From a virus, in IMG/VR virus record IMGVR_UViG_3300032893_000120, positions 1 through 42,348 of that record: a DNA stretch of 42,348 nucleotides, one strand, 5' to 3'. The position numbers were made by a program, and so were the translations under genes. Below, one piece after another: positions 2,927 through 28,208 of the stretch. The first letter of the stretch is position 1, and each line of letters starts with the position of its first letter. The notes beneath the pieces are model-generated. The model worked only from the letters and a program-made list of their open reading frames with translations, did not search any database and was not told where the DNA came from.

Positions 2927-3066
2927 GATGCAACTTATATGTGTGTGTTTCAGGAGCTTGCCAAGCCAAAAAAGCGTGGGAAACGCATTTTGCATTCAGG
3001 CTGGCGAGGGCGGTTTAATTAGTAAATCGATAAGTCATTGAAAACGCTTGCAAACTAGTAATCATT

Positions 3067-3078
3067 TCGCAGCTGCGA
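3067..3078. promoter_or_regulatory. 12-bp palindrome TCGCAGCTGCGA
   Basis: A perfect palindrome in the AT-rich control region, upstream of the leftward gene 2510-2926. A symmetric site like this could bind a dimeric regulator. There is no direct evidence of function. Confidence 0.35.
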
Positions 3079-3191
3079 GATTATTGTTATTTTGAAAGTT
3101 GTTTCATAGTTGGATCAACGATTTAGGTCGAGTGTGCGGTGCAATAATTACTAAAATGGAAAAAGGTAGGGGCACACACGTACGGTCGGAG

Positions 3192-3236
3192 AAAATCCCA
3201 CAGCGAGGGGCGCGCAGGTTGTATTTGTGGGATTTT
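3192..3236. promoter_or_regulatory. 11-bp inverted repeat with 23-base loop
   Basis: AAAATCCCACA (3192-3202) is perfectly complementary to TGTGGGATTTT (3226-3236). The A/T-rich outer ends would give a bidirectional terminator-like stem, or the two arms could be operator half-sites. It is the longest exact dyad noticed in the control region. Confidence 0.5.
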
Positions 3237-3504
3237 ATCGCAATGTACTCCGGGGGCCGTGTTCTCCGGAATAAAAGATAATCAAGGTACAGTCCGGTAT
3301 ATATATATATTATCTTTCAAAGAGATAAACTAATAAACAACTTTTAGCAATGCACCCCTCTTTTCTCCATCCCACTGGTCCTACAGGCGAAAAGGTAATT
3401 GCCGATGCTAAATAACATAACAACATCGTGAGCAAAATCCATATAAAAGACACAATCGGAACGCCAGTTTGCCATAGTTTTCATAATCGTGCCCCAATTC
3501 TAGC

Positions 3505-3516
3505 ACGTGTACACGT
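3505..3516. promoter_or_regulatory. 12-bp palindrome ACGTGTACACGT
   Basis: A perfect palindrome flanked on both sides by TAGC and located just before the TTGCTA cluster. A regulator dimer site is plausible. Only symmetry and location support this. Confidence 0.4.
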
Positions 3517-3541
3517 TAGCATATTCAACTGCTGGTTGAAA

Positions 3542-3743
3542 TAGCAAGGTTTGCTTGCTAATTTTCTTGCTAAAACAGGCTTAGCAAAAATGATTATGTA
3601 AAGTTTTGTTGCTGAAATGTGTTCAGATTATGACTTTCGTTGCTAAAAGCTTTGCTAAGTCGGGCATAGCAATAAGTGTTAGGTACGCTGTGGGGCTGCT
3701 AGGCGGGGCTAGGCGTGCCGGCAATAGCAGACATTGCTAGCAA
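3542..3743. repeat. TTGCTA/TAGCAA iteron cluster
   Basis: Nine exact copies of TTGCTA or its complement start at 3542, 3555, 3567, 3582, 3640, 3652, 3667, 3734 and 3738, with near-copies between. Pairs form dyads: TTGCTAA-7-TTAGCAA (3567-3587) and the 10-bp palindrome TTGCTAGCAA (3734-3743). A tenth exact copy lies at 3345. The array could be a multi-site operator for the XRE protein at 41018-41245, whose own start codon overlaps the motif, or origin iterons. Confidence 0.7.
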
Positions 3744-3891
3744 ACTCGGGGTCGGGGGGCCTCCCACCAGCCGGTCGCGGAAATTCCAGGGCGCACTTTC
3801 AAACCGCACGCAAAATTTCGTGTTTTATGTTGCGTCGCACAAAATTTTACAGCACCTAATACCACGCATAAACTGTACAATCTGCCCCTGG

Positions 3892-3920
3892 TTGACACCC
3901 TCCGCAACCTGTTCCACATT
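3892..3920 (+). promoter_or_regulatory. Candidate rightward late promoter (weak)
   Basis: There is a perfect TTGACA -35 box at 3892-3897, but the hexamer 17 bases on (CACATT) matches the -10 consensus at only three positions. Transcription would start at or next to the ATG at 3926, giving a leaderless message, which fits the absence of a Shine-Dalgarno there. An alternative -10, TACAAT, lies at 3876. A weak -10 may mean that an activator is needed. Confidence 0.35.
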
Positions 3921-3925
3921 GGCGC

Positions 3926-4288
3926 ATGGTTAAGATTATTCTCACCACCCGACGCGAGCCGCCGCGCCGTCCCGAGCCTGACGACGCCATCCGTTATTCC
4001 GTCAATTCGCAGTGGATCTGGAAAGGCGACGCGCAGATCCGCGCCCGGCCGCAAGCCCGCCTGTTGTTCCTAGTCCTGGTCGGTCGCGCTGGCGAATGGG
4101 TGAGCCGCGGCGAGCTGATCCATATCTTTTGGGGCTGGCGTCTCGACGGCGGTCCCGAGGATGTGGTCGCCTGCCTGCAACAGGTTGTGCTCGAAGCCCG
4201 CGCCGTGGCCGCCCTGTTCGGGTTCGCCATCGAGGCCGGTCATGGCCGCGGCTACACCGCGAGGCGAGCGCTTGTCGACGCCGCTTGA
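3926..4288 (+). CDS. OmpR-like winged-helix protein at head of late block (120 aa)
   Basis: Residues about 40-115 fit the OmpR/PhoB-type DNA-binding domain (Trans_reg_C). The recognisable pattern is LVGRAGEWVSRGELIHIFWG, a recognition-helix segment, then a hairpin reading GHGRGYTARR, the counterpart of the family's RGxGY motif. There is no receiver domain. The N-terminal 40 residues are basic. The gene overlaps TerL by 47 bases, so the two are coupled. Two roles are possible: a late-gene activator, or the small terminase subunit, which is usually an HTH protein encoded just before TerL. No ribosome-binding site is visible, so translation may be leaderless. Confidence 0.75.
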   Translation: MVKIILTTRREPPRRPEPDDAIRYSVNSQWIWKGDAQIRARPQARLLFLVLVGRAGEWVSRGELIHIFWGWRLDGGPEDVVACLQQVVLEARAVAALFGFAIEAGHGRGYTARRALVDAA

Positions 4289-6287
4289 TCCGCGCGAGGA
4301 CGCGATCCGCCAGCTGCTGCTGGACCCGGTGCTCGCCCATGACGTGTTCTTCGAGGACCGCCATGAGCACAAGTCGCCCAAGTTCCATCAGGAAATGCTG
4401 CGTGACTGGCACTCGGAAACGGCGCGCATCCTGACCATCGCCTTCCGTGGCTCCGCCAAGTCGACCAGAGCCGAGGAAGCGATCTGCATCGAGGCCGCCG
4501 CTTTGCGGACAATGAACTGCGTCGTCATCGGCGAAAGCGAGACCCGCGCCGCCGAGCGCCTGGCCACCGTCAAGCATGTGTTCGAGACCAACGACGCGCT
4601 GCAAAACCTGTTCGACGTTGGGCCGGGCGACACCTGGACCGACACCCGCTGCACGCTGTCGAACGGCGTCATGCTGCAAGCCTATGGCCGCGAGCAGAGC
4701 CTGCGCGGCGTCAAGCACCTGGACCGTCGGCCCGACCTGATCTTCATCGATGACCTGGAGGATGAGGAAAGTGTCAAGACGCCGCAGCAGCGCGCCAAGA
4801 CGCGGTCGTGGCTGACCCGCACCGTCTTGCCGGCGCTGGAGCCCGGCGGGCGGATCCGCATGGCCGCTACGCCGCTTCACCCCGAAGCCCTGGCGATGAC
4901 CTTGAAGCGCGCCAAGGGATCGTGGCTGACGCGCGTCTACCCGGCGATGTACAAGGGCGCGGACGGCGAGTGGATCGCCACCTGGCCGGACCGCTTCCCG
5001 GTCGACCAGCTCCTGGCCAAGTGGGCGGAAATGACCGAGATCGGCGAGAGCGAGGCGTTCGTGCAGGAATACCTCTGCGAGGCGGTCGACCCGAGCGTCA
5101 TGGTCTTTTCCGAGGACATGATGCGTGTCGTGCCGCGCCAGCGGTCGTGGCACCCGGTCTACGCCGTCTACGATCCGGCCCGCACCAAGAGCGAGCACAG
5201 CGCCACGACCGGTAAGGTGGTCGCCTCGTGGATCGGCGCGCGGTTGGTGGTCTGGGACGCTTCGGCCAAAAAGATGCTGCCGGACGAGATCGTCGCCGAT
5301 ATCTTTGAGGTCGACCGGACCTACAACCCGGTGGCGATCGGGTTCGAGGAAGACGGGTTGAATGAATGGGCGCTGCAACCCATACGAGCGCGTCAGGTCG
5401 AGACCGGTCAGATCGTACCATTGAGACCGCTCAAAGCGCCGAGGGGCAAGCTCGACTTCATCCGCGGGCTGCAACCCTACTTCAAGGCCGGCGAGGTCGA
5501 GTTCGCGCAGGATCTGCCCGAGCTGCGCAACCAGCTGCTCGGCTTCCCGACCGGCTATATCGACGCGCCGAACGCGCTGGCCTACATGCTCAGGCTCAAG
5601 CTTGGCGTGCCGGTCTACGACAATTTCCGCGACGAGCTGATCGTCGAGACGGTCGCCGTCAATCCGCGCGCGCCGCTGTGGCTCTGCCTCGGGTCGAACG
5701 GGGCGGCGGTGACGGCGCAGCTCGCCCAGATGGCGCAGGGGCAATTGAGCGTCATCGCGGACTGGCTGGCCGAGGGCGATCCAGGGTCCGTATTGCGCGA
5801 CGTCGTCGAGGAAGCTAGGCTGACGGCGCTGAGCAGTAAGGGCGGGACGCGCGCAGGGGCGGGGGCCGGGTTAAGCGGATCGCCTGGCCTCCGTCTTGTC
5901 GTCCCCCGCGCCACCTACGACTCCTACCAGTCAATCGGGCTCGGCTTGGCGGCTCGGAAGCTCCAGCGCGACGTCACCCGCGGCGGCGACCCGATGGCCG
6001 GGCGCGAAGAGATCCGGGCGCTGATGCGGCGCTCCGCCCATGGCGCGCCGGCTCTGCGGATCAGCAAGGACGCCCGCTGGACGCTCAGGGCGCTGGCCGG
6101 CGGCTTCGCTCGCGACGCCGACAAGGCCGATCCGCAGAACAACGCCTACTCGGTGCTGATGGAGGGTCTGGAGAGCTTCGCGGCGCTGCTGCGCGGCGGG
6201 GCGGGCGACAGTGACACCGAGACGCAATATGCTTATACTGCTGACGGCCGCCGATATATTTCGGCTCTGGCGACGCGCAGGGGTTGA
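4242..6287 (+). CDS. terL: Terminase large subunit, TerL (681 aa)
   Basis: The packaging motor: it cuts concatemeric DNA and pumps it through the portal using ATP. The ATPase domain has Walker A IAFRGSAKST (residues 66-75), Walker B LIFIDDLED (166-173) and the coupling motif AATPLHP (208-214). The nuclease domain has D311 in VYDPA, acidic E369/E370/D371 in IGFEEDG, and D441 in DAPNALAYML. Residues 450-681 are an extension beyond the usual nuclease end, with no recognisable motif. The chosen start, ATG 4242, follows a GAGG and overlaps the upstream gene by 47 bases; a longer frame from 4161 has no support. Confidence 0.95.
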   Translation: MAAATPRGERLSTPLDPREDAIRQLLLDPVLAHDVFFEDRHEHKSPKFHQEMLRDWHSETARILTIAFRGSAKSTRAEEAICIEAAALRTMNCVVIGESETRAAERLATVKHVFETNDALQNLFDVGPGDTWTDTRCTLSNGVMLQAYGREQSLRGVKHLDRRPDLIFIDDLEDEESVKTPQQRAKTRSWLTRTVLPALEPGGRIRMAATPLHPEALAMTLKRAKGSWLTRVYPAMYKGADGEWIATWPDRFPVDQLLAKWAEMTEIGESEAFVQEYLCEAVDPSVMVFSEDMMRVVPRQRSWHPVYAVYDPARTKSEHSATTGKVVASWIGARLVVWDASAKKMLPDEIVADIFEVDRTYNPVAIGFEEDGLNEWALQPIRARQVETGQIVPLRPLKAPRGKLDFIRGLQPYFKAGEVEFAQDLPELRNQLLGFPTGYIDAPNALAYMLRLKLGVPVYDNFRDELIVETVAVNPRAPLWLCLGSNGAAVTAQLAQMAQGQLSVIADWLAEGDPGSVLRDVVEEARLTALSSKGGTRAGAGAGLSGSPGLRLVVPRATYDSYQSIGLGLAARKLQRDVTRGGDPMAGREEIRALMRRSAHGAPALRISKDARWTLRALAGGFARDADKADPQNNAYSVLMEGLESFAALLRGGAGDSDTETQYAYTADGRRYISALATRRG

Positions 6288-6490: not shown

Positions 6491-7246
6491 ATGAAGCGCA
6501 TCCTGGCGGGCCTGCTGCTGCTGCTGGCGCTGGCCGCCAGTGGAGCGCAGGCGCAAAACAAGACGACGCCCGACAACATCTCTGGCGGCGTCTACAACCA
6601 GATTTTGCCCACGCTGTCGAACCTGCAACCAGGGGTGTTGCAGGTGGATCAGAACGGTCGGTTGATTATCGACCTCGGCGCGGGTTCGATCAGCAACACA
6701 ACGTTCGGGGCGTCTCAGAACGGCAACTGGAACGTCGGCGGCTACGACTCCGGCACGTCTCCTGTTCAATCTGCAACACCCGCCAATGCCTCGCACACCG
6801 CGGGGCAATCAGTTGGCGGTCTGTTCTCGATCCCGCTCGCCCGAACGAATGGCGGTTCTGGCCTTCTCACTCAGATCAACATCACCTCAGTCGCAGGCGA
6901 CACGCCGACGCTTCAGGTTCGTCTGTGGGATCGCGCGCCGACCAATTCGAACTTCGCCTGCGCTGACAACTCGGCTTACGCGGCGGGCTCGGGCTCGACT
7001 GGCGGCACGGTCGGCGCGGATCAAGCGCATCTGCTGACGCCGCCGTTCTCGGTGACGCTCGCCGCGCCGACCTCAGTGACGGGTGACGCCTACACCTACG
7101 GCTCATACTCGTTCTCCCCGCCGCTGTCGTTCAAGAACCAAGACGGCACGACAACGAAGAATGTCTACGCCTGCTTGCAGGCCACGACGACCTACACCCC
7201 CGGCGTCGGCGCCTATTACGTCGATGCCATCGGCCCGCAGGACTAA
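6491..7246 (+). CDS. Exported hypothetical protein with signal peptide (251 aa)
   Basis: No family recognised. The N-terminus MKRILAGLLLLLALAASGA followed by QAQ is a textbook Sec signal peptide with cleavage expected near residue 22. The mature part is rich in Gly, Ser, Thr and Asn, typical of beta-structured surface or fibre proteins. It contains the segments PTLQVRLWDRAPTNS and VYACLQATTTY and two to three cysteines compatible with disulfides. It lies directly before the GH54-like gene. A virion appendage or secreted accessory protein is possible. A true signal peptide on a protein in a phage late operon is unusual. Confidence 0.8.
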   Translation: MKRILAGLLLLLALAASGAQAQNKTTPDNISGGVYNQILPTLSNLQPGVLQVDQNGRLIIDLGAGSISNTTFGASQNGNWNVGGYDSGTSPVQSATPANASHTAGQSVGGLFSIPLARTNGGSGLLTQINITSVAGDTPTLQVRLWDRAPTNSNFACADNSAYAAGSGSTGGTVGADQAHLLTPPFSVTLAAPTSVTGDAYTYGSYSFSPPLSFKNQDGTTTKNVYACLQATTTYTPGVGAYYVDAIGPQD

Positions 7247-7250
7247 CCCC

Positions 7251-8936
7251 ATGCGCTCTACCCTCTCCCTCTCCCTTGCTCTTTGTCTCGCCCTGTGGGG
7301 CGGGGTGGGAGAGGCGGCTCAAGTGTCGAATGGACGAGCGGCGGCGCTATTCTCTGGAGGCGCACCAATTCTTCTCCCGTGTGATGCTGCGGCTAAGGCT
7401 GGGACGCCGTGTGTCGCCGCTCACGGAATCGCGAGGAGGTTATTTCATAGTTACATTGGCGCTCTTTTTCAGATAACGCGCGCGTCTGATAGCGCTACGC
7501 TGAATATATTTCCGAATTCAGACAACTCCGCAAATATTGCCCCAACGGCAGCCTTCTGCGCGGCAACAAAATGCAATATCACGACGATATATGATGAGGC
7601 AAACTCGGGGACGCCAAATAACAATCTAACCAGCGCCGTCAACAATAATCAGTTGATGCTGACGATCACTTACGGCGGCCACGTAGTGCCGGTTTTTGAT
7701 AAAGTGTATGGGGTGTTTCGCAACAGAGCCAGCACGACCAACATCCCGACAGGAAATTCCTCAATCACTGAATACGCGGTGGTTGATAACGGGGCAAACT
7801 CTGCTTGTTGCGGTTTTTACGGAAACGTCGAGACGACCGTGGCTGATACGGGTAACGGGCACATGTTTGAATTGGCCTATGTATCGACCGGAACTTCTGT
7901 CGGGATCGGTCCTGGCCCTTGGGTTGGAGTTGATTGGGAGAACGGAACTTACCTATACGGCCCGACGCAGACTGCTTACGAATTCTCAATTGTGGCAAAA
8001 TACGATAGCGCAGCCACGACTTGGACCTTGGAAAGTGGGGACGCAAAATCGTCCGCACTGGCTATTCTCAATTCTTCCGCGCCGCCGGCAGAAGAGTCCG
8101 CCGCGTTCGAAGGCGGCTTGTCGTTGGGGGAGGGCGGCGACGGGTCGCCGTCGCCGACTCATTTTCTCGAAGGTGCGGTTATTGCCGCACCGACAAGCTA
8201 TTCAACCGATGTTGCGATACAGAGAAGCATAAGCGCTTTTTATGGCGGTTCGCCGACAGCCGTTCCCGTTCCAAGCGTGACGGTTCCGAGCGGTCTGATC
8301 GGGCGTTGGGCCGTCGACGGCTACGGCGTCAGTGGGGCAGGAATCGTATATGATCAATCTGGCTCTGGTTTCCATGCGCCGATGCTGGGATTGTCTCCAT
8401 CGGCAATCGTAACCGGCAAAGTCCTTACTGGATTGGCGATCGACAAGAATGGGTTTGCCAATGCCGGTTCGATGAATCGTCTATCATTAATGGCGTCATT
8501 CAGCGTCACGGGTTGGTACCGATACGACAGCACCCCCACAGTTGGTTACGAGGCGATTGTATCGAAGGACACGGTGACCAGCTATGGCTGGTTCATCGGT
8601 GATAACAATAAAACTAGACAATTAGCTCTTATGTCGCCAGGATCAATCTTAGAGGTTTGCTCAACCGCAGATGCTGTTGGAGCATGGCATTTTGCCAGCT
8701 TAACGGTTGATGGAAGCAATAACTGGACCTTGTATCGAGATGGAGTGTCTTGTGGGGTTGTCCAGCCAGCAAGCTTGATCGGAAACCCATTGGCAAATCT
8801 TATGCTTGGCGCAGATACAAGTAATTTCGCGGCAACGTTTCCTGGCACCATCAATGACATAAGAATATACAACCGTTCTCTATCATCTACGGAAGTGAAT
8901 GCGATCTATACGGCGGGGCAAGGGGGCAATCCTTAG
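7251..8936 (+). CDS. GH54 arabinofuranosidase-like enzyme with LamG-type domain (561 aa)
   Basis: Predicted to cleave alpha-L-arabinofuranosyl or related sugar bonds, perhaps as a capsule or exopolysaccharide depolymerase. After a signal peptide (1-23), residues about 40-335 align by eye with fungal AbfB catalytic domains. The cysteine pairs C44-C54, C103-C108 and the adjacent pair C186-C187 are all present. So are the nucleophile context CCGFYGNVE (E194) and the acid/base context EGGDGS (D297). Residues about 345-560 resemble a LamG/concanavalin A-like lectin domain (GLIGRWAVDGYG near its start, NDIRIYNRSLSSTEVNAIY at its end). Codon use is visibly more AT-rich than in neighbouring genes, suggesting acquisition. 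The start at 7251 follows the preceding stop by four bases. Confidence 0.8.
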   Translation: MRSTLSLSLALCLALWGGVGEAAQVSNGRAAALFSGGAPILLPCDAAAKAGTPCVAAHGIARRLFHSYIGALFQITRASDSATLNIFPNSDNSANIAPTAAFCAATKCNITTIYDEANSGTPNNNLTSAVNNNQLMLTITYGGHVVPVFDKVYGVFRNRASTTNIPTGNSSITEYAVVDNGANSACCGFYGNVETTVADTGNGHMFELAYVSTGTSVGIGPGPWVGVDWENGTYLYGPTQTAYEFSIVAKYDSAATTWTLESGDAKSSALAILNSSAPPAEESAAFEGGLSLGEGGDGSPSPTHFLEGAVIAAPTSYSTDVAIQRSISAFYGGSPTAVPVPSVTVPSGLIGRWAVDGYGVSGAGIVYDQSGSGFHAPMLGLSPSAIVTGKVLTGLAIDKNGFANAGSMNRLSLMASFSVTGWYRYDSTPTVGYEAIVSKDTVTSYGWFIGDNNKTRQLALMSPGSILEVCSTADAVGAWHFASLTVDGSNNWTLYRDGVSCGVVQPASLIGNPLANLMLGADTSNFAATFPGTINDIRIYNRSLSSTEVNAIYTAGQGGNP

Positions 8937-9864: not shown

Positions 9865-12012
9865 ATGGCCAAGCCGAAAAAGATCCGCAACGACGCTGCC
9901 GATCAGGCGCGAGAGACGCCAGAAGCGGTCGCCGACGTCGAGGAAGAGCTGGGGCGCGACGCGCAGCTCTGCCACGATAAGGCGGTGCGCGAGGCGCTGC
10001 TCGACATTTACAAGGACATCGAGAAGGGTTGGGAACAGCAGGCGGAGCGTGCCGACAACAATCTCGACTATTGGGAAGCCTACAACTGCACGTTGGGGCA
10101 GCGGCAATTCTACCAGGGCAATTCCCAGATCTTTGTGCCGATCATCAATCAGGCGGTCAACGCCCGCAAGACGCGATTCGTCAACCAGCTCTTTCCGCAG
10201 AACGGCCGCTATGTTGAAGTGTCGACCGAGGACGGCGGGCTGCCCTATGACGAAATGTCGCTGGTCGAGCACTACATCCGCCAGAACCGCATGCGGACCC
10301 GGATCGCGCCCGCGCTGGTGAAAAACGGCGACATCGAGGGCCAGTACACGATCCAGGTGACCTGGGAGACGACGCGGCGCGATGTCATGCACCGAGTGCA
10401 GAAGGCGGCCGAGATCGACCAGGGGTTGCAGGCGGAAGGCGTCGACGAGATCGAGGACATCGCCGAGGAAGAGATCGAGAGCGGTCGGCCAGTCGTCCGG
10501 ATCATTCCCGATTCCGACATCCTGGTGCTGCCGCAGACGGCCGATTCGCTCGACGAGGCGTTGCGCGACGGCGGCTCGGTGACGACGATGTGTCGCTGGT
10601 CGCAGGCCAAGATCAGTCGCATGATCGCCGAGGGCGAGATCGACGAGGAAGCCGGCGAAGAGCTGCTGGAGGAATTGAAGGGCGACGGGCGCAGCGAGAA
10701 GGTCGACAAGCCGAAGGAAATGGTCGACGCCGCCGGGATCAAGGGCGACGGCCGTGGCAAATGGGCGCTCGTCTACCGAACCTGGACGATGCTGACTGTC
10801 GATAAGGAGCGTCGGCTCTACCTCGTCTATTTCGGCGGCAAGGACCGCATCCTGTCGTGCAAGCGCAACCCCTACTGGTCCGACCGGATCGACGTGTTCT
10901 CGGCGGCGGCCGACAAGGTCGACGGCGCGTTTAAGGGGATCTCGCGCCTGCAACCGGTTGTGGCGCTACAATATCAAGCCAATGACGCCTGCAACGAGGG
11001 CATGGACGCGGCGGCCTATGCGTTGTTGCCGATCATCATGACCGACCCGGAGAAAAACCCCAAAGTCGGTTCGATGGTGATGACGCTGGCGGCGGTGTGG
11101 GAGACCAGTCCGAACGACACGCAGTTCGCCAAGTTCCCGCCGCTGTGGAAAGATGCGCTGGAGATCATTGCTTCGACCAAGACCGAGATTTTCCAGGCGC
11201 TGAGCGTTAACCCGGCGCAAATTACGCAGGCCAACAACCCGCGCGGCAAGAAGCCCAATCAGGCTGAGATCGCCAACGAGCAGCAGATCGACATCCTGAC
11301 CACTGCTGACGCGGTGTCGACGCTGGAGGATGAGATCCTGACGCCGATGCTGGCGTTCATGCTAGAGCTTGACCACCAGTACCGCGACAAGGACTTGCGG
11401 GTGCGCCAGTACGGCGAGATCGGCATGCGGCAGGAAATGAAGTCGATCCCGCCGATTCGCATGAACAAGGTCTATCAGTTCCGTTGGTACGGCGTCGAGC
11501 AGGCGCGCAACGCCCAGCGCATGCAGCAGCAGATCGCCGGGCTGAACGTCATCCGCGGCATCCCGCCACAGCTCTATCCCGGCTACAAGCTCGACCTCGG
11601 GCCGGCGCTGGCGCAGCTGTTCGAGGATCTGTTCGGGCCGCGTATCGCGCCGCTGGTGTTCAAGGACCAGCGGCAGGAGTACGCTGTCGACCCGCAAATG
11701 GAGAACGAATGGCTGGAGCAGGGTATGTCCACGCCCGTCCACGCGCTCGACAACCACCAGCAACACATGCAAGTTCACGTCCAGGCGCTGAAGGCGACCG
11801 GTGATCCGGGTGGCGCGATCCGCGCTCACATGCTGGCGCATATGCAGGCGCTTGAGCAGCAGCAACGGCCGGCGCAGCTCGGGCCGCCGCCTGGCGGTGC
11901 GGGACCGCGGGTCGGCGCAACACCGGGCGCGCCGCGCGGCGGGCAACAGCCGCCGGGCGCGATCCACGCTGATCAGATTAAAGACGCGCGTGCCGCGCCG
12001 AGGCCGCAGTAA
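9865..12012 (+). CDS. Portal protein (715 aa)
   Basis: Forms the dodecameric ring at the capsid vertex through which DNA is packaged and ejected. Assignment rests on size, position after TerL and before the lysis and head genes, and podovirus portal-like features: an N-terminal helical wing with WEAYNCTLGQRQFYQGNSQI, the stretch IFVPIINQAVNARKTRFVNQ around residue 90, an acidic central region (IEDIAEEEIESG), and a Pro/Gln/Gly-rich C-terminal tail after residue 660. The N-terminus is charged and probably disordered. No ribosome-binding site is visible before ATG 9865, but the coding frame is unambiguous. Confidence 0.85.
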   Translation: MAKPKKIRNDAADQARETPEAVADVEEELGRDAQLCHDKAVREALLDIYKDIEKGWEQQAERADNNLDYWEAYNCTLGQRQFYQGNSQIFVPIINQAVNARKTRFVNQLFPQNGRYVEVSTEDGGLPYDEMSLVEHYIRQNRMRTRIAPALVKNGDIEGQYTIQVTWETTRRDVMHRVQKAAEIDQGLQAEGVDEIEDIAEEEIESGRPVVRIIPDSDILVLPQTADSLDEALRDGGSVTTMCRWSQAKISRMIAEGEIDEEAGEELLEELKGDGRSEKVDKPKEMVDAAGIKGDGRGKWALVYRTWTMLTVDKERRLYLVYFGGKDRILSCKRNPYWSDRIDVFSAAADKVDGAFKGISRLQPVVALQYQANDACNEGMDAAAYALLPIIMTDPEKNPKVGSMVMTLAAVWETSPNDTQFAKFPPLWKDALEIIASTKTEIFQALSVNPAQITQANNPRGKKPNQAEIANEQQIDILTTADAVSTLEDEILTPMLAFMLELDHQYRDKDLRVRQYGEIGMRQEMKSIPPIRMNKVYQFRWYGVEQARNAQRMQQQIAGLNVIRGIPPQLYPGYKLDLGPALAQLFEDLFGPRIAPLVFKDQRQEYAVDPQMENEWLEQGMSTPVHALDNHQQHMQVHVQALKATGDPGGAIRAHMLAHMQALEQQQRPAQLGPPPGGAGPRVGATPGAPRGGQQPPGAIHADQIKDARAAPRPQ

Positions 12013-15142: not shown

Positions 15143-16486
15143 ATGCCCGTTAATCAGTCGTCGTCCTTCCAATCGGACGTTGAAGCCTATATCGCGCAGT
15201 CGACTCTGCCGCTTGCTCGGCGTCGGCTGGTCGTCTACCAGTTCGGCGATCCTCTGGAGTTGCCGAAGGGTCGCGGGATCACCTACCAGGCGGCGCGCTG
15301 GAATCGCGTGCCGCTGCCGTCCGCGCCGCTGTCGGAAGGCGTGCCGCCGAACGGCCAAAACATGACCGTGACGATGGTCAGCGCCAACGCGATCCAGTGG
15401 GGCGACAAGATCACCCTGACCGACGTCGCCGAGCTGACGATCAAGCACCCGATGTTCAAGATCGCCAAGGAACTCTGCGCACTGGCGGTCGCTGAGACCT
15501 TGGAGCGCAACACTTTCAACAACCTCAACGGCGGCACGCAGATCAACTACGTCAACTCGCGCGGCGCGCGCGCTTCGCTGGTTGCCGGCGACGTGCTCAA
15601 CCTGCATGAGATCAACCGCATGTATGCGGCCCTGGAGACCCTGGGCGCGCCGCGGTTTATGGGCGACGAGCAGACCGACATGAAGATCGAAGCTGAGGCT
15701 GGCGGCTCGCGCGCTTCTGACAATCCGCGCGGCTTGCCGCACTACACGGCGGTCGTCCACACTTTGGCGGTGCAGGACATCCGCGAGAATTCGACCTTCG
15801 TCACCGCGTCGGCCTACTCGGACATCAACAAGCTCTACAACGCCGAGATCGGCACCCTGGGCGGCGTGCGGTTCTGCTCGTCGAACATGATCCCGACCTG
15901 GACCGGCTATGCGGCGGTGCAGGGTACGGCCGGCACTGCCGGCTCGCTGGCGACCGGCAACTACTACATCATCGTCACCGGTTCGGACACGCAGAACCAG
16001 TACGAGTCCTACGTCGCGCAGGTATCGAACCTGATCGCGGTTACCGGCCCGAACGGCTCGATCTCGGTGACTACGCCGAACGTCTCGGGATACTCGTTCA
16101 ACGTCTACATCGGCCTGACCAACTCGCCGGCCAATCTGGCGCTGAGCGCGTCCGGTCCGACGACCGGACCGATGCAGGGTCAGGCGACGCAGCTGCCGGG
16201 CAACACGACGGTCATCCTGACCGGCACGGGCGTCGCCCAGACGCCGCCGGCCGCGCCGGCAACCGGCGTCACCGTCTACCCGACCTACGTGTTCGGGCGC
16301 GGCGCTTATGGGCAGGTGATGCTCGACGACATCAAGTACACCTACCTCGCGACGGCTGATAAGAGCGACCCGCTCAACCAGCTGCGCGTTGTTGGGTGGA
16401 AGGTTATGTACGGGACGATTCTGCTCAACCAGCTGTTCTTCGGTCGCATCGAGTCGACGTCGGCCTTCGCCGCGACCTTCGGCTGA
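15143..16486 (+). CDS. Major capsid protein, N4-gp56-like, with Ig-like insertion (447 aa)
   Basis: Forms the icosahedral shell. The N-terminal two-thirds carries features I associate with the N4-gp56 capsid family: GDKITLTDVAELTIKHPMFK (residues 88-107), a helical spine (AKELCALAVAETLERNTF) and EIGTLGGVRFCSSNMIPTW before the insertion. Residues about 254-376 form an inserted Gly/Ser/Thr-rich beta domain (NYYIIVTGSDTQ, SYVAQVSNLIAVTGPNG, YSFNVYIG) typical of Ig- or fibronectin-like folds. The HK97-type sequence resumes at VYPTYVFGRGAYGQV. A terminator hairpin follows the gene. The insertion probably protrudes from the capsid surface. Confidence 0.88.
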   Translation: MPVNQSSSFQSDVEAYIAQSTLPLARRRLVVYQFGDPLELPKGRGITYQAARWNRVPLPSAPLSEGVPPNGQNMTVTMVSANAIQWGDKITLTDVAELTIKHPMFKIAKELCALAVAETLERNTFNNLNGGTQINYVNSRGARASLVAGDVLNLHEINRMYAALETLGAPRFMGDEQTDMKIEAEAGGSRASDNPRGLPHYTAVVHTLAVQDIRENSTFVTASAYSDINKLYNAEIGTLGGVRFCSSNMIPTWTGYAAVQGTAGTAGSLATGNYYIIVTGSDTQNQYESYVAQVSNLIAVTGPNGSISVTTPNVSGYSFNVYIGLTNSPANLALSASGPTTGPMQGQATQLPGNTTVILTGTGVAQTPPAAPATGVTVYPTYVFGRGAYGQVMLDDIKYTYLATADKSDPLNQLRVVGWKVMYGTILLNQLFFGRIESTSAFAATFG

Positions 16487-18561: not shown

Positions 18562-20193
18562 ATGGCGCTGCGCAACACAAGAGCGCGCCGCTTCTCGCCG
18601 CAAGGGTTGTCGGACAGCCTCGACGCGACCGACGAGTTCCCCGGCGCGTGCGCCATTCTGCAAAACCTCATCCCCGACCCGACGACGCGCAATATCTGGA
18701 CGTGTCGCCCGGCGGCGACGTTGGCCACTGACTTCACCGGCTACACGACGCCCGGCGCAGTGTCGGTGTGCAAGGTCATCGGCTCGCTGGTCTATGGGCT
18801 GGTCGCCTCGGGGCGAACGGCCAAGCATGACGAGCCGTTCTGCTACAATCTGGCGACGTCGAGCTTTGTCACCGTCAGCGGCATTACTGGCGCGAATGTT
18901 CCGTTGACGCAGGCGACGGTCGGCGACTGGATGCCGCCGACGATGGACCTGTGCGGCGTCAATCTGGTCGTCACCCATCCCGGCTTCGACGGGGTGACGA
19001 ACTTCTTCGGCTGGTTTGACACGACGAACCCCGCCGCGCCGGTTTGGCACGCCGGCAACACCGCGTCGGGTTCGGCGATCACGCTGACGACTGTCCCGTC
19101 ATGGGTGCGTCAGTTCAACGGCCGGGCGTGGTTTGGGATCAACCCGCTGACGGCGCAGCCTTCGGTCGTTTTCACCGACTCGCTGACGCTCAAGGTGACG
19201 AACGCCAACCAGGCGCTGACGTTTGGCGACAATTTGCCGCTAACTTGTGCGATCGGCCTGCCGCTGTCGAATCAGCTCGGCGGCGTCATCCAGGGCTTGC
19301 TGGTGTTCAAGGGCGTCGCCAACATCGAGCAGATCACTGGCGACGCGGTGACCAGCAATCTGTCGGTCAACGCGCTCAACGCTGCGACCGGCACCCTGTC
19401 GCCGCGGTCGCTGTGCGTCACGCCGCAGGGCGTGGCGTTCCTCGCGCCGGACGGCTTTCGGATCATCGATTACAACGCTCAGGTGTCGAAGCCGCTTGGC
19501 GCAGCCGGCAAGGGCGTCAACGTGCCGTTCCTTGGGCCGCTCTACCCGTCGCGGGTCGCCGCCGGCTGCAACGCCTCGGTGCTGCGCGTCAGCGTGCAGA
19601 ACGCGCATGCGCTGAACACGCCGTGGCAGGAATACTGGTACGACTTGACCCGTGAGGTCTGGTCGGGTCCGCACACGCTGCCGGCGACGATCTACGACAC
19701 TTACAACTCGGTGTTTGTCATCGCGCCGCAGTCGATCTCGGCGACGCTTTTTAATTCCAAGACGACGCCCGACACGACGACCGGCGTGGTTGAGAACGGC
19801 TCGACGCTGAGCTGGCGCTTGCAGACGGCGATGCTCGAAGATAACGAGATCATGGCGCAGTCCGAGTTGGTCGAATTGCAGGTCAAGACGTCGTTGATCG
19901 CCGCGGTCGGGTCGATCACCGTGTCGGCGATCAACGAGAACGGTTCAGTCTACAACACGGCGCTTTATGCGTTCAGCGGCGCGCCGACAGTTTGGGGCGG
20001 GTTCAATTGGGGCGCGGCGGTCTGGGGTGGCTCGGAAATGGGGCTCTATCCGCGCTACATTTCGTTCGACAAACCGGTTGTCTACAACCGGCTGGCGGTC
20101 GACATGCAGGGCGCGAGCGCGCAGGACTTCCGTATCGGTGACATTTTCATGCGCGAGCGCAGGCTCGGCTACACGCAACCGGAGGCGATGTGA
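18562..20193 (+). CDS. Tail nozzle / DNA stabilisation protein, P22 gp10-like (543 aa)
   Basis: Probably the tail hub below the adaptor. The family's beta-propeller style is visible: repeated motifs such as VVFTDSLTLKVT, GVIQGLLVFKGVANIEQITG and VAFLAPDGFRIIDYNAQ, and a Trp/Gly-rich segment GGFNWGAAVWGGSEMGLYPR near the C-terminus. It opens with an arginine-rich tag and a DATDEFPGACAILQNLIPDP segment seen in such proteins. Gene order (adaptor, this gene, fibre) is that of P22-like tails. The stop overlaps the fibre gene start as TGATG. Confidence 0.78.
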   Translation: MALRNTRARRFSPQGLSDSLDATDEFPGACAILQNLIPDPTTRNIWTCRPAATLATDFTGYTTPGAVSVCKVIGSLVYGLVASGRTAKHDEPFCYNLATSSFVTVSGITGANVPLTQATVGDWMPPTMDLCGVNLVVTHPGFDGVTNFFGWFDTTNPAAPVWHAGNTASGSAITLTTVPSWVRQFNGRAWFGINPLTAQPSVVFTDSLTLKVTNANQALTFGDNLPLTCAIGLPLSNQLGGVIQGLLVFKGVANIEQITGDAVTSNLSVNALNAATGTLSPRSLCVTPQGVAFLAPDGFRIIDYNAQVSKPLGAAGKGVNVPFLGPLYPSRVAAGCNASVLRVSVQNAHALNTPWQEYWYDLTREVWSGPHTLPATIYDTYNSVFVIAPQSISATLFNSKTTPDTTTGVVENGSTLSWRLQTAMLEDNEIMAQSELVELQVKTSLIAAVGSITVSAINENGSVYNTALYAFSGAPTVWGGFNWGAAVWGGSEMGLYPRYISFDKPVVYNRLAVDMQGASAQDFRIGDIFMRERRLGYTQPEAM

Positions 20194-20990
20194 TGCGCAA
20201 ATGGCTATTGGCTTTGGGGTTGCTGTGCGCGGCAGCGCCCGTCCATGCGACGATTTGCCCCAGCGTGCCCTACACGTTCAGCAACGGCGCGGTCGCCGAC
20301 GCGACGCAGGTCAACGCCGACTTCACGACCATCCTGAGCTGCATCAACGCCAACGTCGCCAAGAGCGGGATCAACAGCGACATCACGTCGCTGACGGCGC
20401 TGACGACACTGTTCGCCTCGGGGCTCGGCACGTTCGGCTCATTGGCTTTCGCCACGGCAGCTGTCAGCGGCGACATCGTCATGTCGGGTACGGGCCAGTT
20501 GCAGTTGCCAGTCGGCACGACAGCGCAGCGTAGCTCATCGCCGGTCGCCGGCATGGTGCGCGTCAACACGACGACCAAAAACCCGGAAGGCTATGGGCTC
20601 TACGGCGATACCAGCTGGCAGAACATCGGCGTCCCGTCGCACGCCGTTATGGCGTTCAATTTAGCGAGCTGCCCGACCGGCTGGCAGGCGGCGAATGGAT
20701 CGAACGGCACCGCCGATATGCGTGGCGTCGTGGCGCGCGGTCTCGACAATGGTCGCGGCCTTGACACGTCGGGGACCGGCCTCGCGGGCTACGAGGCTGA
20801 CATGCTCCAGGACCATACGCACGGCGCGCCAACCAACGGCAATTACGCCGTGAACAACGGGGCCGGGCTCGGTTCAGGTGGCACGTACTATGCGGGCAGC
20901 AACAGCACGACTGGCGGAGTTAATTCAGGCAATCACGGCTACGAGACACGTGTCAAAGCGACGGTGCTGCTCTACTGCGAGAAGCTCTAG
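20193..20990 (+). CDS. Tail fibre with collar-type tip and signal peptide (265 aa)
   Basis: A receptor-binding appendage. The C-terminal half contains GWQAANGSNGTADMRGVVAR, GYEADMLQDHTHG and a final NHGYETRVKATVLLYC, the His-rich trimeric tip of phage tail-collar fibres. The middle has a fibre shaft-type stretch (IVMSGTGQLQLPVGTTAQRS). Residues 1-20 (MRKWLLALGLLCAAAPVHA) form a Sec-type signal peptide, odd for a virion protein assembled in the cytoplasm. ATG 20193, with GGAGG seven bases upstream, is the start; the frame's GTG three bases earlier is less likely. Confidence 0.85.
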   Translation: MRKWLLALGLLCAAAPVHATICPSVPYTFSNGAVADATQVNADFTTILSCINANVAKSGINSDITSLTALTTLFASGLGTFGSLAFATAAVSGDIVMSGTGQLQLPVGTTAQRSSSPVAGMVRVNTTTKNPEGYGLYGDTSWQNIGVPSHAVMAFNLASCPTGWQAANGSNGTADMRGVVARGLDNGRGLDTSGTGLAGYEADMLQDHTHGAPTNGNYAVNNGAGLGSGGTYYAGSNSTTGGVNSGNHGYETRVKATVLLYCEKL

Positions 20991-23904: not shown

Positions 23905-26883
23905 ATGGTCGATCTGCCCGCCTGGGCGCAGGACCAGCAGCGCCTGCTGCCCAAATGGGCTCAGGCGCAGGCTAAGCCGCTGCCGAAATGGGCGCAGGCT
24001 CAGCCCGCGCCGCTGCACGATCGTCCGCCGTTGCCGCGCGAACAGATCACTGACACTGGCCAGCGAACGGGCGGCATTGCGCCCGCGCCCAAACCCAACG
24101 AGCCGACGCTGTCGCAGGGACCGGACGCCGCCTGGTGGACGCTGCGCAACCAGAACCTGCCGGCCGGCGTGCGCGCCCTCGCGGCCGGGGCGGAGGAAGT
24201 CAAGAATATGGGCGTCGGGATCCTCGACCGGATCAAGACGTTCATGGACCCGAGCACGCCGGATGACGAGAAGGCGCGCGCGGCGGCCGACCTGACGATG
24301 GCGTTCGGGATGCGCGAAGCGCCGGGCGAGCTGGCCGCCGCGCCGAAGAAAGCGCCAGCGGCGCAACCACTGGAAGCGCCGAAGGTCGAACCAAAGCCTG
24401 CCGAGGTCGCGCCAGCTGCGCGCAATCCGGAAGGACGGCCGGTGCTGACGCCGAAATGGGCGCAGACTGCGCCAGAGGCAGCGCCGTTGCACGATCGCCC
24501 GCCTTTGCCTGCGAAGCCTGAAGCGGCCAAGCCTGCACCGGAAGCGAGCGCAGCGCATGAGGCTGGTCTGAAAGCGGTTGGCGCGGCCGTCACGCCGACC
24601 GCCGACATCTTGAAGCAGAACATTGCCGATCTCGAAGCGCGCCTGCCGAAGCCGCCCGGCTTCAAGGAACGCTTGCGCGACGTCGCCAATGTGTTTCGCG
24701 AGACTTTCAACCCTGAGAAGATCGACGCCTCCGGCGCGTTCGCAGGTGCAAAAATCCGGCGCTACGAGGGGCGGGCGACGCGCGAAGTCGAGCAGGCCAA
24801 ACACGACTTCGACCAGTTCCGCCAGGCAGTCGACGCCCAGACGACGCCGGAACAGAAGCTGGCGCTGCTCAAATGGATCCAGAAGCCCGATGTCGCCTCA
24901 CAGGCGCAAGCTAAGGCGGGCGGCGCATTCATGCCAGGGTCTGACATCGCGCCGCTGTTGACCGCGATCAAGGATCTGATGCTCAAGTATCGGCTCCAGC
25001 TGGAGAACATGCCCAAGACGGCGCAAATGGCGTTCAAGGACGACTATCTGCGCCAGGTGTGGAAGGATCCCGGCGCTGCGCTGGAGCACCTGAAGTCCAT
25101 GCCGGCGAAGCAGGGATCGAATTTTTTCACCAAGCGCACGGTGTTCGAGGACTATGAGGAAGGCATCCGCGCCGGCTACGTGCCCGAGACCATGGATCCG
25201 ATCGAGCTGTCGCTGCGCTACGCCGAGAACGCCAGCCGCTACATCGCCCTCAACCATGTGCTCGACGACGCGACCGAGGCCGGGCATGTCGTCTGGCGCG
25301 CGCCCGAGCATGCGCCCAACGGATGGGTGAAGCTCGAAGGGCGCGCTGGCAGCTATCACGGCGGGCCGGGGCAGGACGCCTACGCGCCGCCGGGCTTCGC
25401 CGCGGTCTACAACAACTTTGTCTCGCAAGCGCCGAAGCGCGGCGGAACGCTGCTCGGCTGGCTGCAACGCGCTTCCAACCTGTCGACCGCCTTCAAGCTC
25501 TCGCTGTCGTGGTTCCACGGCGGGCTGGAGACGCAGGAAGGCATGACCAGCGCCATCGCCAACGCGATCGACAAGCTGACCGGCGGCGACGTGGCCGGCG
25601 CGCTCGAGACGGCGGCCGGCGCGCCGCTCGCGCCGATCAGGAGCGTCGCCCGCGGGCGCGAAATGCAGAAGGTCTACCTCGGCCAAATGGTCGGCGCGCC
25701 GCGCACCGAGCGGATCGTCGACGCGCTGACCGACGCCAACTTCAACATCGCTGGCCGCGGCCGCACCGCCGACGAGTTCCGCGCCTCGCGGCTCGGCGGT
25801 TTCTTCGAGTCGTTCCGGCGCGGGCGGCTCAAGTACGAAGCGCAGCTGCACGCCGAGGACATCAAGGACCATCCGGTCGCTGGCCCGGTGCGGCTGGCTG
25901 GCCGCGTGCTCGACACGGCGATGGAGCCGATCTTCCAATATTACGTGCCGCTGCTCAAGAACGGCGCGGCCTACGACATGCTCGACACTTGGCTGAAGGC
26001 CAACCCCGAGGCGACCGACGAGGCGCTGGCCGCTCAGGCGCGCAAGGTCGCCAACATGATCGACGACCGCTTCGGCGAAATGAACCACGACAACATCTTC
26101 TGGCAGCGCACGACCAAGATGATCGCCCAGAGCATGTTCGTCTCCTACTCCTACACCCTCGGCACGCTGCGGATGGCCAGCGGCGCGGCGGCGGACGTCG
26201 CCACCATGGCCTCGCGGCTGAAGAGCGGCGACAAGCTGTGGACATCGCGGATGAGCCAGGCGCTGGCGATCCCGGTGACGGCGATCATGACCAACGCCGT
26301 CTACCAGTACCTCAAGACGGGCTCGCTGCCGCAGGATCTCAATCAGGCGGCTTACCCGCTAACTGGCGGGACCGACCCGACAACCGGCAAGCCGGCGCAC
26401 GCCGTGCTGCCGTCCTACCTGCCCCAGTTCCTGAACTTCTACGACAACCCGACCGGCGAGGCGTCGAACAAGATCAACGCCTTCTGGCACACCCTGTGGC
26501 AGGTGGCGAGCAACAGCGACTGGCGCGGCGACCCGGTGATCAACAAGAACCTGCCGCTGCTCCAGCAGTTCGAGCAGCTGATGGGCTATGTCTACCAGGA
26601 AGCGGTGTCGCCGATCTATCTCAGCGGCGCGCGCAAAGAGAACACCGCGATCAGCGAGCCTGAGCGATTCTTCGGCGTGCGCGACGCGCCGATGCGCGCC
26701 AACGACCCGGCCGCCTACAAGAAGCTCAAGGGCTACGTGACGGCGCGCGACAACGCCCGCAAGGCGCAGCACGACATCAACGCCCAGCGCGTCCAGCATG
26801 GCCTGCCGCCGCGCCGCTGGTCGCGCGCCGAGACCAACGCCATGATCCAGAAAGAACTGAACCACTACGGCGGCACGCAATGA
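23905..26883 (+). CDS. Large internal virion / ejection protein C (992 aa)
   Basis: The largest late protein. The N-terminus has repeated PKWAQ motifs (near residues 17, 28 and 190) and two PLHDRPPLP motifs (near 36 and 200) within Pro/Ala linkers, like repeated short linear binding motifs. Residues from about 250 to 960 are folded and mostly helical, with hydrophobic segments around LGWLQRASNLSTAFKLSLSW and MFVSYSYTLGTLRMASGAAA that could insert into membranes during ejection. No transglycosylase signature was found. The stop overlaps the PurD-like gene as ATGA. Confidence 0.7.
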   Translation: MVDLPAWAQDQQRLLPKWAQAQAKPLPKWAQAQPAPLHDRPPLPREQITDTGQRTGGIAPAPKPNEPTLSQGPDAAWWTLRNQNLPAGVRALAAGAEEVKNMGVGILDRIKTFMDPSTPDDEKARAAADLTMAFGMREAPGELAAAPKKAPAAQPLEAPKVEPKPAEVAPAARNPEGRPVLTPKWAQTAPEAAPLHDRPPLPAKPEAAKPAPEASAAHEAGLKAVGAAVTPTADILKQNIADLEARLPKPPGFKERLRDVANVFRETFNPEKIDASGAFAGAKIRRYEGRATREVEQAKHDFDQFRQAVDAQTTPEQKLALLKWIQKPDVASQAQAKAGGAFMPGSDIAPLLTAIKDLMLKYRLQLENMPKTAQMAFKDDYLRQVWKDPGAALEHLKSMPAKQGSNFFTKRTVFEDYEEGIRAGYVPETMDPIELSLRYAENASRYIALNHVLDDATEAGHVVWRAPEHAPNGWVKLEGRAGSYHGGPGQDAYAPPGFAAVYNNFVSQAPKRGGTLLGWLQRASNLSTAFKLSLSWFHGGLETQEGMTSAIANAIDKLTGGDVAGALETAAGAPLAPIRSVARGREMQKVYLGQMVGAPRTERIVDALTDANFNIAGRGRTADEFRASRLGGFFESFRRGRLKYEAQLHAEDIKDHPVAGPVRLAGRVLDTAMEPIFQYYVPLLKNGAAYDMLDTWLKANPEATDEALAAQARKVANMIDDRFGEMNHDNIFWQRTTKMIAQSMFVSYSYTLGTLRMASGAAADVATMASRLKSGDKLWTSRMSQALAIPVTAIMTNAVYQYLKTGSLPQDLNQAAYPLTGGTDPTTGKPAHAVLPSYLPQFLNFYDNPTGEASNKINAFWHTLWQVASNSDWRGDPVINKNLPLLQQFEQLMGYVYQEAVSPIYLSGARKENTAISEPERFFGVRDAPMRANDPAAYKKLKGYVTARDNARKAQHDINAQRVQHGLPPRRWSRAETNAMIQKELNHYGGTQ

Positions 26884-28208
26884 AGACCCTGATCGTCGAT
26901 CCAGCCGGCTCGGGCCTCGACTGGGCCTACCGCGCCAAGGAAGCAGGCCATGCGGTCAAGCTCTTCATTCGCCAGACGCCCAAGACCGAGCACATCGGCC
27001 GTGGGTTGGTCGACGTCGTCGAAGAGCTGGATCCCTGGTTGCGCTGGCCGGATCTGATCGTCAACACCGACAACACCCGCTACCTGCGCGATCTCGACAT
27101 GATGCGCGTTTTGGGCTGGCCGGTGATCTCGGCCTCGCAGGAGTCGGCGAAGTGGGAGCTGGACCGTGACGTCGGCCAAAAAATCCTCAAGAAACACGGC
27201 GTCGAGACGCCGCCCGCGAAGGAGTTCAACGACTATGACCAAGCCATCGCCTACGTCAAACGCACTGGCAAGAGACTGGTCAGTAAGCCATCGGGCGATG
27301 CTGACAAGGCTCTATCCTATGTGGCGAAGACGCCTGCGGATATGGTCTATATGCTTGAACGCTGGAAGCGGACGGGAAAGCTTAAAGGAGCCTTTATTCT
27401 TCAGGACTTCATTCCTGGTATTGAAATGGCTGTGGGAGGCTGGTTTGGTCCACACGGCTTTAACGCCGGATGGTGCGAGAATTTCGAGTTTAAAAAGCTC
27501 ATGGATGGAGACATGGGCGTGGCCACCGGAGAGCAGGGAACTGTCCTCCGTTACGTGACGCGGTCGAAGCTCGCCAAGCTCGTCTTGTCGCCGCTGACCG
27601 AAGCGCTGGCGGCGCTCGACTACTGCGGTTACGTCGACGTCAACTGCATCATTGACGAGAAGGGCCAGCCGTGGCCTCTGGAGTTTACGATGCGGTTCGG
27701 CTGGCCTACATTCAATATCCAGCAGGAGTTGCATCCTGGCGATCCGGTTGACTGGCTATGGCAGCTTTCGCAAGGGCGGGACGCCCGCAATACCTGGATG
27801 GACAGGGTCGCCATCGGCGTCGTTTTGTCGGTGCCCGACTATCCCTACTCGCACCTGACGAGAAAGGAAGTGGTCGGGTCGCCGATCTATGGGCTGACGC
27901 CGCAGCTCCAGCCGCACGTCCACTTCTGCGAGACGATGCTGGGGGAAGCGCCGATCGACCGCAACGGCAAGGTGGAGACGGCGAAACTGCCGGTGACGGC
28001 GGGCGACTACGTGCTGGTGATGAGCGCGACGGGGGAGACGGTCTACCAGGCGAAGCAAACCGCCTACCGACGTTTGAAGCACTTGACACTTCCCAACTCC
28101 CCGATGCACCGGACGGACATTGGCGACAGGCTCTCAGCGCAGCTGCCCTTGCTACAGAAGCACGGCTTCGCGACGGGGTTGGCGTTTTCGACAAGTCCGC
28201 CGCCCTAG
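26880..28208 (+). CDS. PurD-like ATP-grasp ligase (442 aa)
   Basis: ATP-grasp enzymes join a carboxylate to an amine through an acyl phosphate; PurD makes glycinamide ribotide. The N-domain (MKTLIVDPAGSGLDWAYRAK), the ATP-grasp region (DVGQKILKKHGVETPP, RLVSKPSGDADKAL, FILQDFIPGIEMAVGGW) and the terminal segment LEFTMRFGWPT resemble PurD. In PurD the last motif is E-F-N-x-R-F-G-D-P-E, so the metal-binding Asn is Thr here (T270) and the acidic end is lost; the substrate may differ. Codons for about residues 135-223 are clearly more AT-rich than the rest. ATG 26880 overlaps the previous stop. Its job in a virion operon is unknown. Confidence 0.7.
   Translation: MKTLIVDPAGSGLDWAYRAKEAGHAVKLFIRQTPKTEHIGRGLVDVVEELDPWLRWPDLIVNTDNTRYLRDLDMMRVLGWPVISASQESAKWELDRDVGQKILKKHGVETPPAKEFNDYDQAIAYVKRTGKRLVSKPSGDADKALSYVAKTPADMVYMLERWKRTGKLKGAFILQDFIPGIEMAVGGWFGPHGFNAGWCENFEFKKLMDGDMGVATGEQGTVLRYVTRSKLAKLVLSPLTEALAALDYCGYVDVNCIIDEKGQPWPLEFTMRFGWPTFNIQQELHPGDPVDWLWQLSQGRDARNTWMDRVAIGVVLSVPDYPYSHLTRKEVVGSPIYGLTPQLQPHVHFCETMLGEAPIDRNGKVETAKLPVTAGDYVLVMSATGETVYQAKQTAYRRLKHLTLPNSPMHRTDIGDRLSAQLPLLQKHGFATGLAFSTSPPP

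Follow-up and report, generated by a model that had tools for sequence, protein, structure and literature searches.

Enzymes of the GH54 family are known from fungi and bacteria. The closest solved relative of the protein described here is AkAbfB, the GH54 alpha-L-arabinofuranosidase of Aspergillus kawachii (PDB 1wd3 and 6sxr; phmmer E 3e-32 to 1wd3), whose C-terminus is a CBM42 beta-trefoil; CBM42 is not a defining feature of the family. GH54 is a retaining family whose catalysts are a Glu and an Asp (PMC6887791). Viral CAZymes have been reported in mixed groups that include GH54, and the accessible part of that report singles out no GH54 protein (PMC10227523). Two kinds of phage protein come near the family. 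The tailspike of cyanopodophage Pan3 (PDB 9vyh) has a similar sandwich fold, and gp29 of Microbacterium phage Fizzles, together with related phage structural-region proteins, contains an N-terminal piece of the GH54 profile PF09206 (positions 14-89 only in gp29). Relatives of gp29 are found in phages of Gordonia, Arthrobacter, Aphanizomenon and Synechococcus, and some of these structural-region proteins are annotated as alpha-L-arabinofuranosidase.

The window analyzed here is the whole 42,348-nucleotide stretch of viral DNA in IMG/VR record IMGVR_UViG_3300032893_000120. It encodes a GH54-like protein, P0001, between the genes for the terminase large subunit (TerL) and the portal. The features of the locus, by position in the window, are as follows.

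4161..6287, + strand: TerL, left border of the cargo locus (phrog_38, E 1e-55)
6491..7246, + strand: P0003, signal-peptide protein of 251 aa; 4 bases separate its end from the start of P0001
7251..8936, + strand: P0001, GH54-LamG protein, 561 aa (ATG at 7251, stop at 8936)
7251..7319, + strand: predicted Sec-type signal peptide, residues 1-23, cleavage site approximate (sequence and home-made rule)
7377..8249, + strand: GH54 catalytic domain, residues 43-333 (Pfam, AF2, VIA-align)
7806..7811, + strand: adjacent cysteines C186-C187 (alignment to AkAbfB)
7938..7940, + strand: E230, equivalent of the catalytic nucleophile AkAbfB E221 (alignment; title of PDB 6sxr)
8139..8141, + strand: D297, equivalent of the acid/base AkAbfB D297 (alignment)
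8478..8900, + strand: LamG (Laminin_G_3) domain, residues 410-550 (Pfam)
9865..12012, + strand: portal/head-tail adaptor, right border of the cargo locus (phrog_332; relatives)
15143..16486, + strand: major capsid protein (phrog_1357; relatives)
20193..20990, + strand: tail-fibre-like protein, also starting with a signal peptide (phrog_327, phrog_1800)

The original prediction placed a phage-encoded GH54 arabinofuranosidase-like gene here, and its coordinates and frame are right. Residues 43-329 match PF09206 over profile positions 1-311 of 315 (E 3.3e-50; 171 bits against a cut-off of 25), which makes P0001 a member over the whole domain and bears out the GH54-like identity. The LamG-type domain that had been read after the catalytic part is there as well (Laminin_G_3, E 1.5e-15), in the place that CBM42 takes in the two-domain AkAbfB type. 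The N-terminus, MRSTLSLSLALCLALWGGVGEAAQ, resembles a signal peptide, both on inspection and under a home-made rule, in agreement with the earlier prediction of one. The phage setting is equally clear: TerL lies on one side, and on the other the portal/adaptor is followed by a GH19-type endolysin and the major capsid protein. Elsewhere in the window, two tandem arrays of a 33-bp unit (15 copies at 46-548 and 7 at 858-1096) are read partly as repeated RAYEEA units by a reverse-strand ORF at 1-1035; the stretch at 3001-4000, upstream of TerL, is AT-rich (45% GC) with few long ORFs; and positions 26880-28208 (+ strand) encode a PurD-like ATP-grasp protein (GARS_A, E 1.6e-10; TIGR00877, E 2e-24, under its cut-off).

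How does the catalytic center compare with that of AkAbfB? In an AF2 model derived from 39 GH54 sequences, 10-residue blocks across residues 41-330 have mean pLDDT values of 60-96, the LamG part being poorly modeled. VIA-align places the AkAbfB entries on top (Z ~37, rmsd 2.0 Å over 287 residues, 33% identity), and the model adopts the beta-sandwich catalytic fold of GH54. The original prediction had named E194 and D297 as a catalytic pair within one pocket. D297 stands: it maps to AkAbfB D297, within GGD, and is invariant in the 39-sequence GH54 alignment. E194, although also invariant, was misassigned. It aligns with AkAbfB E184, while AkAbfB E221, the position of the E221Q mutation in PDB 6sxr, aligns with the invariant E230 in the motif VDWEN; E194 is thereby excluded as the nucleophile, and a pocket defined by E194 and D297 rests on the wrong residue. 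Superposition on AkAbfB suggests that E230 and D297 share one pocket. The three cysteine pairs hold up, including the adjacent CC: C44, C54, C103, C108, C186 and C187 correspond to AkAbfB C21, C31, C81, C86, C176 and C177, all six are invariant in the same alignment, and the bonds C44/54, C103/108 and C186/187 are predicted. Apart from its phage origin and its LamG domain, P0001 differs from AkAbfB in being gapped at W206. In gp29, unlike P0001, the regions of E230 and D297 are unmatched; a degenerate tail domain devoid of catalytic residues is a description that fits gp29 and is excluded for P0001. Taken together, the profile match, the residue mapping and the modeled fold support P0001 as a phage-encoded GH54-type enzyme whose catalytic machinery appears complete. 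GH54 itself is a known family; the apparent departures are the phage setting, the LamG partner replacing CBM42 and the cargo locus.

Because the Pan3 tailspike has a similar fold, P0001 could be a virion-attached depolymerase of the tailspike or adhesin type that trims or binds host glycan at adsorption. Among the structural matches, Pan3 ranks directly behind AkAbfB (Z 17.9), but at 10% identity the likeness to this virion tailspike is one of fold. Phage structural-region proteins with an N-terminal GH54 piece exist, the P0001 gene lies in the head-tail region, and signal-peptide proteins of related phages match tail-fibre families. We nonetheless regard virion attachment as unlikely. P0001 has no N-terminal virion anchor of the kind found in phage tailspike depolymerases, its catalytic domain beginning at residue 43, about 20 residues past the signal peptide, and its gene adjoins TerL and the portal, away from the tail genes. 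To our knowledge, moreover, tail-fibre proteins normally carry no export signal, which also counts against attachment.

Full-length viral GH54 proteins are rare, as judged by pattern scans that miss divergent relatives. A tblastn search with P0001 against 50,697 phage records gave no match, and an IMG/VR scan with P0001 alone found nothing. Three alignment-based IMG/VR scans returned one full-length GH54 besides that of the window, in IMGVR_UViG_3300003375_000147 (hereafter L002); against the phage records, its sole match was Fizzles gp29. Given this rarity, P0001 is a predicted phage-encoded arabinofuranosidase that can be tested and whose domain partner is unusual. The L002 protein is 45% identical to P0001 over the entire catalytic domain, has a signal peptide and likewise adjoins TerL and the portal in a viral contig, just downstream of TerS-TerL-portal; its C-terminal region, capsid lineage and low-GC contig differ from those of the window. 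In a tree of 83 sequences, the two formed a fully supported pair on long branches, apart from the 81 others. The tree thus suggested a virus-only clade, an idea weakened by a cellular relative absent from the tree: a divergent proteobacterial GH54 lipoprotein (genome G325, L231:9427-11520) that is 40-44% identical to P0001 over two pieces, has the LGEGGDGS motif in common with it and resembles the L002 protein in its C-terminal part. Unlike P0001, it is chromosomal, has a lipoprotein-type signal and adjoins tolB-, pal- and mutL-like genes. Since this chromosomal protein resembles both viral ones, the two may belong to a lineage that is not confined to viruses. A plasmid search for a GH54 source returned only Streptomyces and Streptantibioticus records, at 35-36% identity over part of P0001.

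Composition sets the gene apart from its surroundings. As had been noted from the DNA, it is more AT-rich than its neighbors: at 53.1% GC its GC3 is 0.537, compared with 0.707-0.877 in 27 other window genes (mean 0.817, SD 0.053), or about 5 SD below. This low GC3 suggests recent import. The L002 gene departs from its own contig in the other direction (GC3 0.58, above the 0.30-0.43 of four other genes), so both copies look foreign. Could the gene then be foreign to the phage altogether, as an assembly chimera or a functionless passenger insert? Deviant composition makes a misassembled insert formally possible, the break is sharp and confined to this one gene, and no close viral relative has the same gene. 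Such an origin is nevertheless highly improbable, as all 561 codons are open with every catalytic residue kept, the gene follows P0003 at a distance of 4 bases in a locus that contains cargo in relatives too, and the second, independent viral GH54 in L002 adjoins TerL and the portal as well.

What else occupies this locus? Portal and capsid searches yielded more than 100 related IMG/VR contigs. In 46 contigs with portal identity below 57%, the median TerL-portal distance is 173 bases, exceeding 1 kb in 3, whereas among the 8 contigs with at least 57% portal identity (the window included) 7 exceed 1 kb, with distances of up to 8.8 kb. Most of about 50 relatives have the two genes almost abutting, while the closest carry 1.7-8.8 kb of cargo between them. 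Among the other phage relatives examined, none was found to carry a GH54, so it is not a core function. Predicted signal peptides are concentrated here. By our home-made rule, they occur in 14 of the 22 cargo genes between TerL and portal that encode at least 200 aa (64%) and in 6 of 11 genes upstream of the portal where TerL is off the contig, compared with 1 of 202 core genes (0.5%) and none of 33 genes upstream of TerL; large genes elsewhere in the structural region score positive in 18-19% of cases. Shuffled N-termini give about 2.7 positives for both cargo groups together (22 + 11 genes). The Fisher p of the enrichment is ~2e-20 (1e-18 without the window's genes), which is not a strict probability because the contigs are related.

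The N-termini of 54 such signal-peptide proteins have the consensus MKxLLxxLxLLxxxxxAxAQ. Most have no family match; matches among the rest include tail fibre, tail collar and EPS depolymerase families as well as Gly-rich, beta-helix and GH43 ones. The N-terminal module of P0003 recurs in signal-peptide cargo proteins of four relatives (L163, L178, L108 and L168). P0001 sits in a variable cargo locus, in which relatives swap in many other proteins predicted to be exported and to bind or cut sugars. The locus contents are diverse. A related phage has a signal-peptide GH43-like glycosidase in its TerL-portal interval (L167:2869-4473), another carries five consecutive signal-peptide genes, two of them very Gly-rich, directly upstream of the portal (L087:234-9978), and in a third an ORF of this interval starting MMRGGTLFSGIGAPE looks by eye like a DNA cytosine methyltransferase (L129:5596-7290). 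Three signal-peptide cargo proteins are related to one another (L154:5038-6267, L167:1907-2914 and L172:44-1216) and have a pattern of the type FC...C...YDQ, reminiscent of the N-terminus of GH54. As candidates for a GH54 fold, they gave an AF2 pLDDT of only 29 and a profile-comparison probability of 91% over only 82 columns, and L167:1907-2914 had no PDB or phage match.

Why would a phage encode such an enzyme? The gene lies in a viral genome between the hallmark genes TerL and portal, as expected of an auxiliary metabolic gene, and the infected cell might secrete the enzyme and use arabinose freed from plant or microbial polysaccharides as food. A full GH54 enzyme with a secretion signal, secreted cellular relatives and the foreign composition of the gene are all in keeping with this. 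We consider host feeding quite improbable all the same, because no arabinose uptake or catabolism genes were recognized among the window proteins scanned, and the neighborhood, like the cargo in related phages, has an adhesin-like character, not a metabolic one.

We think it reasonably likely, rather, that P0001 is an exported GH54-type retaining alpha-L-arabinofuranosidase, recently gained in the TerL-portal cargo locus, that trims glycans of the host surface or surroundings. The gene is probably expressed together with the structural genes, since it is on the same strand, 4 bases after P0003. The signal peptide would direct Sec export of the protein into the periplasm or out of the cell, and the three disulfides, including the adjacent C186-C187, could form there. 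The LamG domain would keep the enzyme on a glycan while E230 as nucleophile and D297 as acid/base, assigned from residues and modeled fold, would remove terminal alpha-L-arabinofuranose side chains. The likeness of the clade's signal-peptide proteins to tail fibres, EPS depolymerase, beta-helix and GH43 proteins suggests such a trimming role, and the most likely purpose would be to let progeny disperse or reach receptors by trimming the EPS or glycan coat that surrounds the host and neighboring cells. Action on an arabinose-containing capsule or EPS, as originally proposed, is plausible; arabinofuranose in the target glycan is assumed. As for the host, a prophage search of 398 Pseudomonadota genomes gave only distant capsid matches. 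One Bradyrhizobium phage tail-region protein has a domain in common with a protein of L163 and also starts with a hydrophobic stretch, a weak hint of rhizobial hosts.

The cargo locus may matter more than the GH54 enzyme, as it points to a phage clade with export signals on tail-fibre-like and sugar-active proteins. Literature searches turned up no paper clearly devoted to signal peptides of phage tail fibres. Tentatively, and with considerable doubt, we propose that this uncultured clade routinely exports adhesins and glycan-active enzymes through Sec before lysis, many of them from a portal-side swap-in locus in which GH54 is one interchangeable item. If so, the Sec-exported proteins would either serve as extracellular enzymes that are shared or be added to virions once outside the cytoplasm, the latter a route that receptor-binding proteins of tailed phages do not usually take. 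The locus raises the concrete question of whether, in some tailed phages, depolymerases and adhesins are secreted before lysis.
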